From contig NZ_CP089095.1 of assembly GCF_021172145.1 (NCBI RefSeq), forward strand, positions 372,001 to 436,000: a DNA stretch of 64,000 nt, written 5' to 3'. The notes under the pieces were generated by a model that was given only the letters and a program-made list of their open reading frames with translations, did no database searches and had not been told where the DNA came from. Position numbers and translations under genes: made by a program. This DNA comes from Flavobacterium cyclinae (GTDB taxonomy: Bacteria; Bacteroidota; Bacteroidia; Flavobacteriales; Flavobacteriaceae). This document shows positions 4,127-49,276 of the stretch, in pieces; within the stretch, counting starts at the first letter, position 1; the number at the start of each line of letters is the position of its first letter.

Positions 4127-6322
4127 ATGAAAACTTTATTCAACCAAGATGGCTTAATGCCAAAAACAAAAAGTCGCTATTTTAGTTACCTTTTGCCTTT
4201 TGCCTTTTACCTTTTACCTTTTGTTTCTTTCTCACAAGAAACTCAGAAAGACAGTTTAAAAACTACTGAACTTAAAGAAGTAGTTGTCGCATCAGTAAGA
4301 GCAAAAGACAAAAATCCAATTACGTACACCAATGTTTCAAAAGAACAGATTGCACCTCGAAATTTAGGTCAAGATGTGCCGGTATTAATGCAATATTTAC
4401 CATCTGTGGTGAGTACAACTGATGCTGGAAATGGAGTTGGGTACACTTATATGAGAGTTCGTGGATCTGATGGTTCTCGAATTAATGTTACCTTAAACGG
4501 AGTTCCTTTTAATGATAGCGAGAGTCAGGGAACGTTCTTTGTGAATTTACCTGATTTTGCCTCTTCGTTAGAAAGTGTTCAATTGCAAAGAGGGGTTGGA
4601 ACTTCAACTAATGGTGCTGGTGCTTTTGGAGCAAGTTTAAATATGGCAACCAAATCGTATCAAGAAAAATCGTATGCTGAAATAGCAAATTCCTTTGGAA
4701 GTTTTAATACAAGAAAGCACACTTTGTCGTTTGGAACTGGCTTGCATAATAATTTTGAATTGAACGGTCGCATTTCCAATATCGCATCTGATGGATTTAT
4801 CGATAGAGCCTCATCCAATATGTTTGGTTACTTCTTTAATGCCAATTATGTTAAAGAATCTACTTTAGTGAAATTTATGGCATTTGGAGGAAAAGAAAAA
4901 ACCTATCAAGCTTGGTACGGAATTGAAGATCCTGAAAAACTTAGAAATGACAGAACATTCAATCCTGCCGGAATGTATTTCGATGAAAACGGCAACATGC
5001 AATTTTATGATAATGAAACCGATAATTATTGGCAAAATCATTTTCAATTGCATTGGACTGAAAAATGGACTGAAAAATGGATTTCAAATACCGCTTTACA
5101 TTATACAAAAGGAAAAGGATATTTTGAACAATATAAAGAAGATGAAGATCTAACAGATTATAATTTGCCAGCTTTTAACGGAAATTCAATTTCTGATTTG
5201 GTAAGAAAACGTTGGTTAGACAATGATTTTTTTGGAGCTACTTTTTCATTAAACTATAGAGATGAAAAGACAGATTTATTATTTGGTGGTGCAGCTAATC
5301 GTTATTTAGGATTACATTATGGAGAAGTTATTTGGACAACAAATTATATTCCAAATCCAAATCGCTACTACGATAATTATGGAAATAAAGACGATGTGAA
5401 TTTCTATACAAAAGCATCATATAACGTTACAAACAAGTTGAATTTGTTTGCCGACTTACAATATAGAATGGTTTTCTATAATGCTACAAGTGTAAAATTT
5501 GACGACGTAAATGATACATTCCGATTTTTTAATCCAAAAGCAGGTTTAAATTATCAATTAGATGAAAAAAATACTTTTTATGGTTATTTTGGAATTGCAA
5601 ACAAAGAACCAAGACGCGACGATTACGAAAGTGGAGCAATTAAACCAGAGCGTTTGTTTGATTATGAATTGGGTTGGAAATACAACACTAAAAATGTGAA
5701 ATTGTATGCCAATGCATTTTATATGAGATACAATAATCAGTTGGTAATGACTGGAGCATTAAATGATGTAGGTTCGCCAATTTTCACGAATAGCGGTAAA
5801 AGTTATCGATTAGGTTTAGAAGTAGAATCTACCATTGCTTTAACAGATAAATTATTTTTGAACCCTAATTTTACCTTAAGTCAAAATAAAAATATAGACT
5901 TTTATTTTCAACGTGATGGAATTATTCAAGATTTAGGAAATACAAATATTGCCTATTCGCCTAATTTTGTAGCTGCTAATAGTTTTACGTATTTGCCAGT
6001 TAAAGGATTACAACTAGCTATTTTGTCAAAATTTGTTGGCGAACAATATATGGGAAATATTGATTCGGCTAATTCTAAATTGGATAGTTATTTTGTTAGT
6101 GATTTCAATGCTTCATACGATTGGCAAATCAATAAAGGAATTAAGTCAATTGTTTTTTCTGCTTTGGTCAATAACATTTTCAATTTAGAATATGAGTCAA
6201 ATGGGTATTTCTACACCTATGATGACACTTGGTCTGGACCAACTCCAGTTACAATAGAAGGAGCCGGTTTTTATCCACAAGCTGGGATAAATTTCATACT
6301 TGGCGCCACCTTAAAATTTTAG
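4127..6322 (+). CDS. TonB-dependent outer-membrane receptor, probably for thiamin
   Basis: The 731-residue protein has a signal peptide ending near FSQ/ET (about residue 37), a TonB-box-like ELKEVVV segment, a plug domain (about residues 55-160, with M-R-V-R-G and GVPFND), then a beta-barrel that closes with the aromatic C-terminus KF. TonB-dependent receptors import scarce solutes across the outer membrane using energy from TonB-ExbB-ExbD. The TPP riboswitch ahead of it makes thiamin or a precursor the likely ligand. THI-regulated receptors of this kind are known from comparative genomics of Bacteroidetes. An alternative start at ATG 4157 would shorten the leader by ten residues. The signal peptide contains a heptad repeat (separate entry) that could slip. 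It ends at a bidirectional terminator. Confidence 0.9.
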   Translation: MKTLFNQDGLMPKTKSRYFSYLLPFAFYLLPFVSFSQETQKDSLKTTELKEVVVASVRAKDKNPITYTNVSKEQIAPRNLGQDVPVLMQYLPSVVSTTDAGNGVGYTYMRVRGSDGSRINVTLNGVPFNDSESQGTFFVNLPDFASSLESVQLQRGVGTSTNGAGAFGASLNMATKSYQEKSYAEIANSFGSFNTRKHTLSFGTGLHNNFELNGRISNIASDGFIDRASSNMFGYFFNANYVKESTLVKFMAFGGKEKTYQAWYGIEDPEKLRNDRTFNPAGMYFDENGNMQFYDNETDNYWQNHFQLHWTEKWTEKWISNTALHYTKGKGYFEQYKEDEDLTDYNLPAFNGNSISDLVRKRWLDNDFFGATFSLNYRDEKTDLLFGGAANRYLGLHYGEVIWTTNYIPNPNRYYDNYGNKDDVNFYTKASYNVTNKLNLFADLQYRMVFYNATSVKFDDVNDTFRFFNPKAGLNYQLDEKNTFYGYFGIANKEPRRDDYESGAIKPERLFDYELGWKYNTKNVKLYANAFYMRYNNQLVMTGALNDVGSPIFTNSGKSYRLGLEVESTIALTDKLFLNPNFTLSQNKNIDFYFQRDGIIQDLGNTNIAYSPNFVAANSFTYLPVKGLQLAILSKFVGEQYMGNIDSANSKLDSYFVSDFNASYDWQINKGIKSIVFSALVNNIFNLEYESNGYFYTYDDTWSGPTPVTIEGAGFYPQAGINFILGATLKF
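4189..4223 (+). repeat. Five tandem heptamers CCTTTTR inside the receptor signal peptide
   Basis: Five uninterrupted seven-base units with consensus CCTTTTR (R = G,G,A,A,G) run from 4189 to 4223. Seven is not a multiple of three, so the tract is read in all three frames and yields the hydrophobic pattern LLPFAFYLLPF. Gain or loss of one unit would shift the frame and truncate the receptor; gain or loss of three would keep it. Confidence 0.85.
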
Positions 6323-10515: not shown

Positions 10516-10516
10516 T

Positions 10517-10637
10517 AAAGAGTAAAGAGAATAGAACATAGAAAAAAAGAGTCATTCAAAATTTACGTTTTGAATGGCTTTTTAATTTCTTGATAGTTAA
10601 GTCTATTCTCTTTCTTCTATTCTCTATTTTCTTAAAA
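10517..10637. repeat. Inverted heptad tracts enclosing a terminator hairpin
   Basis: Left arm 10517-10551: about five purine-rich seven-base units such as AAAGAGT and AAAGAGA. Right arm 10603-10637: about five pyrimidine-rich units such as CTATTCT and CTTTCTT, in inverted orientation. Between them lies a terminator hairpin: ATTCAAAA at about 10554-10561 pairs with TTTTGAAT at about 10568-10575, followed by GGCTTTTT. The right arm runs up to the ribosome-binding region of aat. The arrangement matches those at 13641-13731 and 47921-48364. Confidence 0.7.
10550..10584 (+). terminator. Intrinsic terminator after DUF3127
   Basis: The hairpin, built on ATTCAAAA/TTTTGAAT and extended by an AGTC/GGCT pairing, is followed by five T residues. 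It ends the flavin reductase-DUF3127 transcript. It forms the centre of the inverted heptad structure. Confidence 0.75.
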
Positions 10638-29043: not shown

Positions 29044-29114
29044 TGGCCCATGGTGTAATGGTAACACTCCGGTTTTTGGTACCGTCATTCAAGGTTCGAG
29101 TCCTTGTGGGCCAA
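29044..29114 (+). tRNA. tRNA-Gln (anticodon TTG)
   Basis: The acceptor arms TGGCCCA (29044-29050) and TGGGCCA (29107-29113), D arm GTGT/ACAC with the GG-containing loop, anticodon loop TTTTGGT giving anticodon TTG, and the T arm with GGTTCGAGTCC are all present. The discriminator base is A at 29114, and no CCA tail is encoded. The last pair of the anticodon stem is a C-T mismatch. It decodes CAA (and CAG by wobble). A terminator follows three bases later. Confidence 0.97.
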
Positions 29115-46895: not shown

Positions 46896-47918
46896 ATGAA
46901 TGATAATTTGAATCCCAATAAAGAATCGTATTCTCCGCAAGATATTGATATCGAAAAAGCGTTACGACCTCTAAGTTTTGATGACTTTACAGGACAAGAT
47001 CAAGTTTTAGAAAATTTGACTGTTTTTGTTCAAGCTGCAAATTTGCGTAAAGAAGCATTAGATCACACGTTGTTTCATGGACCTCCTGGTTTAGGAAAAA
47101 CAACTTTGGCAAATATTTTAGCAAATGAATTAGGAGTAGGAATTAAAATCACTTCAGGCCCCGTTTTAGATAAGCCTGGTGATTTAGCTGGATTATTAAC
47201 GAATCTTGAAGAACGTGACGTTCTCTTTATTGACGAAATCCATCGTTTAAGTCCAATTGTTGAAGAATATTTGTATTCGGCAATGGAAGATTTCAAGATT
47301 GATATCATGATAGAATCTGGGCCTAATGCTAGAACCGTTCAAATCAATTTGAATCCGTTTACTTTAGTTGGAGCAACAACTCGTTCGGGATTATTAACTG
47401 CGCCTATGCGTGCTCGTTTTGGAATTCAAAGTCGTTTACAATATTACAATACCGAACTATTAACTACCATTGTGCAAAGAAGTGCTTCTATTTTAAAAAT
47501 GCCAATTACAATGGAAGCTGCAATTGAAATTGCTGGAAGAAGTAGAGGAACACCTCGTATTGCTAATGCTTTATTGCGTCGTGTGAGAGATTTTGCTCAA
47601 ATTAAAGGAAATGGTAAAATTGATATCGAAATAGCAAGATTTGCATTGAAAGCATTAAATGTTGATGCTCATGGATTGGATGAGATGGATAATAAAATTT
47701 TATCTACAATTATCGATAAATTCAAAGGAGGTCCAGTTGGATTGACCACACTGGCAACAGCTGTTTCCGAAAGTGGCGAAACCATTGAAGAAGTATACGA
47801 ACCATTTTTGATTCAAGAAGGTTTTATAATTAGAACCCCACGAGGAAGAGAAGTAACCGAAAAAGCGTACAAGCATTTAGGGAAAATTAAAAACAATATT
47901 CAAGGAGGACTTTTTTAA
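46896..47918 (+). CDS. ruvB: Holliday junction branch migration helicase RuvB
   Basis: The 340-residue AAA+ protein has [12 protein letters not shown], Walker [10 protein letters not shown], Walker [10 protein letters not shown], sensor I G-A-T-T-R and arginine-finger region R-A-R-F-G, and ends with the winged helix T-P-R-G-R. It drives branch migration with RuvA (at 53276). The promoter is so close that the message is probably leaderless. After its stop comes the left arm of an inverted repeat. Confidence 0.97.
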
Positions 47919-47920
47919 GA

Positions 47921-47949
47921 GCTGGAAGATGGAAGCTTGAAGTTGGAAG
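47921..47949 (+). repeat. Left inverted-repeat arm (four heptads, consensus GNTGGAA)
   Basis: Four seven-base units, from GCTGGAA to GTTGGAA, run from 47921 to 47948, two bases after the ruvB stop. The 29-base tract equals the reverse complement of 48336-48364 at 26 of 29 positions. Confidence 0.9.
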
Positions 47950-47976
47950 TTTTATTTCGTTTTAAAAGATATTTTT

Positions 47977-48330
47977 ATGAGTTTTAAGTTTGAAAAATTA
48001 ATTATTTGGCAAAATGCAATGAGTTTTGGTGAAGACATTTTCAAAATTTCTCAAAACTTTCCTAAAAGTGAAATATATAATTTGACTTCCCAAATCAATC
48101 GTGCGGTTGATTCGATAGCTTTAAATATTTCTGAAGGTTCAATTGAGCAAAGTAATCCTGAGTTTAGAAGGTTTTTAGGATATGCAATTCGCTCTTTAGC
48201 AGAAGTTGTGACTTGTTTGCACAAAGCAAAAAGGAGAGCATATATTAGTGAAGTAGATTTTGATAAATTTTATCAGGATTCATATAATTTGATGAATATG
48301 ATGATTGCTTTTAGAAATAAATTATCGTAG
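47977..48330 (+). CDS. Four-helix-bundle protein, S23 / 23S rRNA intervening-sequence protein (IVP) family
   Basis: The 117-residue protein has the family start [10 protein letters not shown] and the central [17 protein letters not shown] followed by [15 protein letters not shown]. Relatives are encoded in insertions of bacterial 23S rRNA genes, and a distant branch is the Avd accessory of diversity-generating retroelements; most chromosomal copies have no known role. This one is not in an rRNA gene. It is flanked by 29-base inverted repeats and sits between ruvB and queG, so it looks like the cargo of a small mobile element (inference). Confidence 0.93.
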
Positions 48331-48331
48331 T

Positions 48332-49276
48332 ATGTCTTCCAACTTCCGGCTTCCATCTTCCAACTATTCAAAGATTATAAAATCCGAATCCAAAAGACTC
48401 GGCTTTTTGTCTTGCGGTATTTCAAGAGCTGGTTTTTTGGAAGAAGAAGCGCCTCGTTTAGAAATTTGGCTCAACAATCAAATGCACGGTGAAATGAGCT
48501 ATATGGAAAATCATTTTGACAAACGTTTGAATCCAGCACTTTTGGTGGATGGAGCAAAAAGTGTGATTTCGTTATTGTTGAATTATTATCCTTCCGAACA
48601 TCAAAATAAGGATTCCTATAAGATTTCAAAATACGCCTACGGACAAGATTATCATCATGTTATAAAAGGAAAATTAAAAGAATTATTACTTTTCATACAG
48701 ACTGAAATTGGAGAAGTGTCAGGAAGAGCTTTTGTGGATTCAGCACCGGTTTTAGATAAAGCTTGGGCAGCAAAAAGTGGCTTAGGTTGGGTAGGAAAAA
48801 ATAGCAATCTCATCACCCAAAAAGTGGGTTCGTTTTATTTCATAGCCGAATTAATTGTCGATTTGGAATTAGAATACGACACACCAACAACCGATCATTG
48901 CGGAACTTGTACCGCTTGTTTAGACGCTTGTCCTACGGAAGCTATAGTAGCGCCTTATGTGGTTGATGGAAGCAAATGTATTTCTTATTTTACTATTGAA
49001 TTGAAAGATAATTTACCTCAAGAAATGAAAGGTAAATTTGATGATTGGATGTTTGGTTGCGATGTTTGCCAAGATGTTTGTCCTTGGAACCGATTTTCAA
49101 AACCACATAATGAACCACTTTTTAATACAAACTCGGAGATTTTAAATTTCTCAAAATCAGATTGGGAAGAAATTACTCTTGATACTTTTCAGAAAGTATT
49201 TAAAAATTCAGCTGTAAAACGAACCAAATATGAAGGTTTACTTCGTAATATCAATTTTTTAAAGAATAAAGGGTAA
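48332..49276 (+). CDS. queG: Epoxyqueuosine reductase
   Basis: QueG reduces epoxyqueuosine in tRNA to queuosine, the last step of the pathway, with cobalamin and two [4Fe-4S] clusters. Seen: [27 protein letters not shown], cluster motifs [12 protein letters not shown] and [11 protein letters not shown] take ATG 48332, one base after the IVP stop; it makes 314 residues. Residues 2-11 are encoded by the right inverted repeat (48336-48364), so the original N-terminal codons appear to have been replaced. Another in-frame ATG at 48305 lies inside the IVP gene and is less likely. Confidence 0.95.
48336..48364 (-). repeat. Right inverted-repeat arm (four heptads, CTTCCNN), within queG
   Basis: Four units CTTCCAA, CTTCCGG, CTTCCAT and CTTCCAA, inverted relative to 47921-47949 (26 of 29 matching). 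It is translated as residues 2-11 of QueG. Confidence 0.9.

Follow-up and report, generated by a model that had tools for sequence, protein, structure and literature searches.

A four-helix-bundle gene between inverted heptad arms at the Flavobacterium ruvB-queG junction: probable member of a widespread group of minimal mobile elements

The ruvB-queG locus and its relatives

The DNA analysed here (the window) is a 64,000-nucleotide stretch from Flavobacterium cyclinae. Three genes, all on the forward strand, make up the locus: ruvB (46896..47918; TIGR00635 and PRK00080.1 equivalog models, both above cut-off), an S23/IVP-family gene for a four-helix bundle of 117 residues (47977..48330), and queG (48332..49276; TIGR00276, above cut-off). 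The family assignment of the small gene, originally made from the letters alone, is borne out by profile searches, PF05635 matching at 112.1 bits (cut-off 33.8) and TIGR02436 at 105 bits (cut-off 24). On either side of the gene lies a tract of tandem heptads. The left arm, four GGAAG-type units at 47921..47949 on the forward strand, begins two bases past the end of ruvB at 47918, as initially described; the right arm (48336..48364) carries the units in inverted form, reading CTTCC on the forward strand. Recounting gave the same figure as the first-pass annotation, the two tracts being reverse complements at 26 of 29 positions. In extended form, the inverted match reaches back to 47913 on the left and forward to 48372 on the right (47913-47949 against 48336-48372, 32 of 37 positions). 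The 117-residue frame is indeed the one gene enclosed by the arms, no other listed ORF of at least 60 amino acids lying there.

The match between the flanks of the IVP gene scores z ~10 against dinucleotide shuffles and is therefore beyond chance; 0 of 52 other window ORFs exceed z 3. Inverted pairs of 29-mers no more than 1 kb apart and with at least 24 matches occur at three places in the 64-kb window, the element included; the members of the two other pairs start 38 and 66 bases from each other. The right arm does not lie wholly between genes: queG is readable from an ATG at 48332, and codons 1-11 read from there are made of right-arm sequence. At the empty junctions of relatives the queG start is a different, non-repetitive sequence. 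The copy lies outside rRNA genes, as noted from the start: it sits between ruvB and queG, and Rfam, at its gathering cut-off, matches nothing in the window except a tRNA at 29044.

An AlphaFold2 model of the IVP protein (mean pLDDT 97.2) finds its best PDB match in 2gsc_B, the structure of XCC0516 (TM 0.96), with 2rld_B at TM 0.84; the next matches are Avd chains (4dwl_D, TM 0.80 / 0.87, 8% identity, Foldseek E 0.11). In the available part of one report, the XCC0516 structure is a homopentameric ring (PMC4990558). No catalytic domain was recognised in the protein, in which Pfam finds PF05635 and nothing else. It is a bundle of S23/Avd type and not a transposase; Pfam and fold matches show no HUH/Y1 tyrosine transposase.

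Thirty genomes, including that of the window, were compared at the ruvB-queG junction. The empty sites sought in relatives were found: two genomes with RuvB 98% identical have a gap of 25 bp (L042 and L043), and further empty junctions measure 26 bases (L044 and L048) or 32 bases (L054). The window IVP subfamily occupies the junction in four of the 30 genomes (the window's own copy, L040, and L041, L047 and L058 at 98%, 71% and 72% identity). One junction (L051) holds a different PF05635 gene (47.9 bits) between different repeats, one (L065) a GGAAG-type tract and no gene, and the remaining 19 have 57 to 1382 bases of other sequence. The window element has taken the place of the 25 bases of an empty junction and has not split them; in L047 the old queG start is retained. 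Either insertion here took place repeatedly or by more than one route, or old copies were lost time and again. Comparison of filled and empty ruvB-queG junctions by eye revealed no evident target-site duplication and no clean insertion. A single origin of the IVP copies at this junction is neither demonstrated nor rejected (single-clade AU test, p = 0.06).

A search of 249 genus genomes (E 1e-28) found the window IVP subfamily in 23, at 24 loci: 13 at ruvB-queG, two beside queG with no ruvB in the stretch examined, and nine elsewhere. The other junctions include one before a HlyD-like gene (L133, L135, L139 and L150), one common to L142 and L146, and one before an agmatine-deiminase-like gene (L149 and L151, 63% and 52% identity). 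These two gene names and, below, leuS, dnaE, lpxB, rnhB, accB/accC, carA/carB and TonB receptor are presumptive labels, in part read by eye from the translations. Arm units vary with the junction, being GGAAG-type before the HlyD-like gene, GGATG/GGGTG-type in L142 and L146, and of a different unit in L151. One genome (G013) has an empty ruvB-queG junction (L048) and an element before the HlyD-like gene (L135). At ruvB-queG, two loci (L144 and L145) have GGATG-type arms on both sides instead of GGAAG-type ones. Across different junctions, a flank match of 18 or more was reached by 38 of 100 same-subfamily pairs versus 5 of 154 different-subfamily pairs, and in the wrong polarity by 3 of 100 same-subfamily pairs, these pairs being non-independent. 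Left out of this test were L150 and L152, whose flanks include IVP coding sequence, L148 and L153, for which stop codons had been reported, L140, where the stretch examined lacks ruvB, and the broken copy L008. The subfamily occurs at four or more junctions, arms and IVP protein thus travelling together. Among the 80 armed genus loci described below, no pair of IVPs more than 62% identical lies at different junctions, and movement thus looks rare or old; closer pairs at different junctions were found only in the directed subfamily search.

Inverted arms around S23/IVP genes

PF05635 matches nine places in the F. cyclinae genome, one of them with a stop, and is present in 146 of 150 genus genomes. 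The loci fetched, mostly those with the best-scoring matches, gave a flank set of 106 ORFs, or 104 once a duplicate locus was removed (L038, identical to L071); the window and L040, which is the same place as L004, were left out of it. Because many loci are orthologous, the arms of other loci were unsuitable as a null, and dinucleotide shuffles and real control genes were used. Inverted arms at z>3 flank 80 of the 104 ORFs (mostly best-E matches), compared with 11 of 362 control genes in a sample from the F. cyclinae genome, three of which reach z 4. The 104 ORFs represent 20 distinct junctions, 17 with at least one armed locus. Periodicity in the arms stands at 0.40 for lag 7 and 0.45 for lag 8 (other lags, 0.24 to 0.36). 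Direct-orientation flank matches above z 4 were seen at 21 of the 106 ORFs. When the PF05635 loci of three genomes were taken (F. cyclinae, G032 and G097), arms were present at 28 of the 34 ORFs called, with many different units; the broken F. cyclinae copy (L008) is absent from this count. The first-pass annotation had anticipated CTTCC-type heptads beside other IVP genes. Inverted heptad-type flanks are there at most of those tested; the unit is locus-specific and usually not of the CTTCC type. At one locus (L071, G147:C1:74243-78099) two IVP genes of equal score lie 545 bases apart, with CGAACAT-type heptads beside them.

The arms have a polarity. On the coding strand, the upstream arm contains more G than C at 72 of the 80 armed genus loci, the reverse at four and equal amounts at four. 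Moreover, the two arms of one locus match each other better than arms swapped between orthologues. In permutations of the three largest clusters, which ignored the species tree, own arms scored 20.1 against 15.9 for swapped ones in cluster 0 and 23.6 against 19.2 in cluster 1 (none of 2000 permutations as high in either), and 13.0 against 11.4 in cluster 2 (p 0.01). Mismatches within the arms comprise 101 wobble-type and 154 non-wobble transitions, the opposite of what an RNA stem predicts; lacking a G-U bias, they make pairing in sense RNA not the obvious cause of the arm match. Neighbours tend to run in the direction of the IVP gene. Of 32 genes on each side, 31 of the downstream and 29 of the upstream ones do so, against a background of 245 of 343; this bias is compatible with an RNA route as well as with selection against orientations that disrupt.

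Outside the genus, a scan of GTDB species genomes with a 2gsc-led alignment gave at least 583 confirmed relatives, of which the best 80 were taken; 78 were testable, the other two (L220 and L274) lying at contig ends. Inverted arms at z>3, mostly of period 7, flank 56 of the 78 loci from these best 80 of at least 583, and the armed loci fall in 16 of the 21 named phyla sampled in this set, among them Bacteroidota, Bacillota, Planctomycetota, Pseudomonadota, Acidobacteriota and Chloroflexota. Polarity is again constant, with more G than C upstream in 54 of the 56 armed loci of the same best 80. Control ORFs in samples of five other genomes exceeded z 3 in 17 of 510 cases and z 4 in six. Non-IVP ORFs inside the cross-phylum loci (L201-L280) did so in 14 of 124 and 13 cases, respectively, at least three of the 14 (L229, L237 and L271) being antisense frames that span the IVP gene. 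Flanks that match strongly in inverted orientation (z 6 to 16) surround non-IVP ORFs at L206, L223, L249, L268 and L273.

In Xanthomonas, Luteimonas, Dyella and Dokdonella, which we take to be relatives, the IVP gene, of the type that has been crystallised, lies between accB- and accC-like genes (L201-L205). Arms at these loci are of GGGAATC or GGGATTC type and extend, as judged by eye, from the stop codon of one neighbour to the start of the other. The Xanthomonas rows score z 0.0 despite GGGAATC-type arms visible on both sides, and some z>3 failures are thus effects of trimming. Conserved IVP residues were partly produced by the search patterns IPSNIAEG and [IF]P[DE][SQE]E[KR][FY]GL; those outside the patterns are Q39, R42, S73 and E76.

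Heptad tracts and mini-elements without an IVP gene

Tracts of the same kind also occur alone. A 464-kb portion of the F. cyclinae genome contains 18 lag-7 tracts; one is the left arm of the window element, the sole arm of an intact IVP element among them. No such tract arises in shuffled sequence, and the counts for the remaining lags between 4 and 13 are 0 to 7. A strict search of the 464 kb yielded no IVP-less convergent pair besides the window element. Units of the window arm recur in two genomes in particular. The GGAAGNT triplet GGAAGNTGGAAGNTGGAAG has four matches in the F. cyclinae genome, at three places, all outside the element, and ten in G032, four of them within its ruvB-queG element; 16 other genomes have one match, as does the control read backwards. 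In G032, a GGAAG tract lies in frame within a leuS-like gene. Eight relatives compared have no GGAAG tract at this place; one of them (G028) has a longer insertion there, and another (G026, L312) carries GGTTGTC and GAGAACG heptads, unlike G032.

Three other arrangements were observed in F. cyclinae. A CTTTTGC/CTTTTAC-type heptad tract at window positions 4184-4226 runs in frame through the N-terminal region of a 731-residue ORF (4127-6322), a TonB receptor by eye, where it gives LLPFAFYLLPF. At 10516-10543 lies a solo period-7 tract, taaagagtaaagagaatagaacatagaa, intergenic or at a gene edge, with no IVP gene. Elsewhere in the genome (L183, 7785-8124), a 112-residue GIY-YIG gene (PF01541) sits between matching inverted repeats of TGTCATGCTGAACTCGTTTCAGCATCTC type and is perhaps another repeat-plus-protein unit.

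Dispersed tracts also occur in Xanthomonas and its relatives. The pattern GGGAATCGGGAATCGGGA has 124, 48, 92, 2 and 16 matches in the genomes of L201 to L205, respectively, overlapping matches in long tracts each being counted as in all pattern counts here; it has one match in all in 13 other genomes, and read backwards it matches nowhere. The arms of L205 itself are of GGGATTC type. In one Luteimonas genome (G274) with 49 tracts, all six close neighbours are convergent and none divergent. In one Xanthomonas genome (G297), close neighbours number 12 among 30 GGGACCN tracts; 11 of them are convergent, the IVP element being one of these, one is in tandem and none is divergent. Convergent mini-elements were also seen in G272. 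By eye, an AAAGC-like string follows the first tract in several convergent pairs, and likewise in the IVP element. A GGGAATC mini-element with 32 bases between its arm pattern matches lies, by eye, within a dnaE-like gene of Luteimonas (L297).

The relation between mini-elements and IVP genes was followed in Xanthomonas, where PF05635 was found in 13 of 16 genomes. All 25 loci read at a lpxB-rnhB-like junction hold a mini-element, whose unit is equal on both sides in each species and differs between species (GGGAATC, GGGATTC-like or GGGACCC). Three genomes (G297, G301 and G303) have an IVP gene with GGGACC arms at a carA-carB-like junction. These same genomes have 51, 70 and 86 matches to the GGGACCN triplet, the 13 others 0 to 46 (p 0.004). 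The association of the GGGATTC unit with IVP is weak (p 0.037). Tracts occur in three genomes where no IVP was found (46 GGGACCN matches in G309, 21 in G292, and 12 GGGATTC matches in G310), and in G288, G289 and G293 the unit of the mini-element and that of the resident IVP disagree by eye. In partial samples of five other genomes, own-unit tracts number 7 in the matched cells and 0 in the 20 mismatched ones; two of the five (G282 and G280) have no tract of their own IVP unit.

Interpretation and comparison with known systems

Sequence comparison establishes the association of S23/IVP genes with inverted heptad arms, the polarity of the arms, their joint change, the empty sites, and the presence of one subfamily with its arm type at different junctions. 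It likewise establishes that dispersed tracts share the unit of IVP arms in Xanthomonas and its relatives and in the window's own genome. The proposal that gene and arms form a minimal mobile element gains support from the empty sites and from the inverted flanks at most IVP genes, and extends more broadly than first put forward. We consider it roughly two-to-one probable that the window copy belongs to a widespread group of RAYT/REP-like minimal mobile elements, each with a single S23/IVP gene enclosed by inverted arms whose tandem units measure 7 bp or sometimes 8 bp, with the upstream arm richer in G than in C on the coding strand, and copied under the guidance of IVP. In such an element, the IVP ring would bind the G-rich heptad strand, perhaps with one unit per subunit, and would bring the two arms together. 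The unit, and with it IVP-less tracts, might thereby be copied to new sites, strand cutting and synthesis being provided by a host or trans-acting enzyme. Insertions would survive where the damage is slight: in frame, at the start or stop codon of a gene, or between two genes that run in one direction. None of the comparisons caught an element in the act of moving.

A bolder version, which we think less likely than not, makes S23/IVP the driver of a mobile DNA that spans many phyla and has no known transposase. IVP-guided repeat copying, in which the G-rich strand would lead from either end towards the middle, would rewrite the two arms in concert, possibly via RNA and a reverse transcriptase acting in trans, as the fold relative Avd does. 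The heptad repeats scattered in Xanthomonas, Flavobacterium and elsewhere would then be non-autonomous offspring, and 23S rRNA intervening sequences (IVS) would be copies that landed in rRNA genes.

Other readings accommodate part of these data. The gene and its arms could be a stable cassette for RNA processing or regulation, inherited and not mobile, whose arms pair in the transcript and are cut by RNase III, either separating upstream from downstream messages or regulating IVP. The co-directional neighbours agree with this, as do the many loci common by orthology (20 junctions for 104 ORFs) and the stem of the Coxiella 23S IVS, which the available text of one study describes as cut by RNase III (PMC4990558). 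The arm mismatches, however, lack a G-U bias (101 wobble-type versus 154 non-wobble transitions), same-unit IVP-less tracts and mini-elements are scattered through genomes, the subfamily is not confined to one junction, and some relatives have empty sites; we therefore regard a fixed cassette as improbable. Much the same standing is given to the converse idea, that the heptad tracts are themselves mobile or self-expanding, by slippage plus some other mobiliser, and that IVP is a passenger captured between two of them. Tracts do outnumber IVP genes: of the 18 with lag 7 in 464 kb of F. cyclinae DNA, a single one is the arm of an intact element. G309, G292 and G310, too, have tracts where no IVP was found. 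Against this idea, the arm unit follows the IVP subfamily between junctions, polarity is fixed relative to the gene, and counts of the GGGACC unit in Xanthomonas are highest in the three genomes whose IVP has GGGACC arms. That nothing more than chance repeats and noisy annotation surrounds a small, common gene is scarcely credible: 22 of 78 cross-phylum loci (best 80 of at least 583) and 24 of 104 genus ORFs do miss z>3, but controls pass that threshold at just 0/52, 11/362 and 17/510, and some failures result from trimming, as in the Xanthomonas rows with z 0.0 and visible arms.

If a mobile element guided by IVP is the right reading, it joins three matters: the function of S23/IVP proteins, still a puzzle despite two solved structures (2gsc and 2rld), the origin of bacterial heptamer repeats, and the selfish insertions in 23S rRNA. 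The protein would gain a candidate ligand in its own heptad, the repeats a candidate mobiliser and the insertions a candidate source, each puzzle becoming testable through the others. Recurrence in many phyla, with repeats that also lie alone in genomes, suggests a tiny, poorly recognised kind of mobile DNA. A warning for annotation would follow as well, in that the starts of queG-like genes and stretches inside leuS-like genes can be element DNA.

Among known systems, Avd of diversity-generating retroelements shares the four-helix bundle with IVP (TM 0.80 / 0.87) and differs in sequence (8% identity, Foldseek E 0.11); the direct neighbours of the window IVP are ruvB and queG. The TAACTGA heptamers of Beggiatoaceae, cyanobacteria and Bacteroidetes resemble the present tracts as intergenic heptamer arrays, but are, in the accessible account, nearly all direct arrays (PMC4679880), and the terms 'S23', '23S' and 'helix bundle' have 0 occurrences in that text. 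Closer are the heptameric repeats of Xanthomonas and Nostoc (GGGAATC, GGGGA[T/C]T), which share the GGGAATC unit with Xanthomonas IVP arms; in X. campestris, according to the available text, there are 186 GGGAATC-type tracts, most with four units, and 70 convergent inverted pairs among them (PMC4692102). Neither 'S23' nor 'four helix' occurs in the text of that paper, and the link of GGGAATC repeats to an XCC0516-type gene is drawn in the present analysis.

The IVS of 23S rRNA genes have a PF05635 protein and terminal inverted repeats around one ORF, as does the window element; they lie in an rRNA gene, whereas the window copy lies in a junction between protein genes. The portion of the source at hand calls the Coxiella IVS a selfish element; RNase III cuts its 28-bp terminal stem, and three tandem GACAGAT heptamers directly precede the S23p start (PMC4990558). 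The same portion makes no mention of two-sided heptad arms, arm turnover or IVP-less tracts (PMC4990558). In the open-licence literature, as far as it was available, no paper was found that joins S23/IVP genes to two-sided heptad arms or dispersed heptads, and we rate the group as new because of this.

REP/REPIN sequences and their RAYT (TnpA-REP) proteins offer a parallel: the part of the literature seen describes short repeats dispersed in genomes, some as inverted doublets, together with genes for associated proteins (PMC3116915). The first-pass annotation had already drawn this comparison, and it is strengthened by the same-unit tracts scattered in the same genome and by the convergent mini-elements of Xanthomonas and Luteimonas. 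The differences are that IVP has no HUH/tyrosine transposase and that the arms are tandem heptad arrays whose unit changes. On this analysis, then, the group appears to work like RAYT/REP without being a RAYT, and it may include the 23S rRNA intervening sequences.
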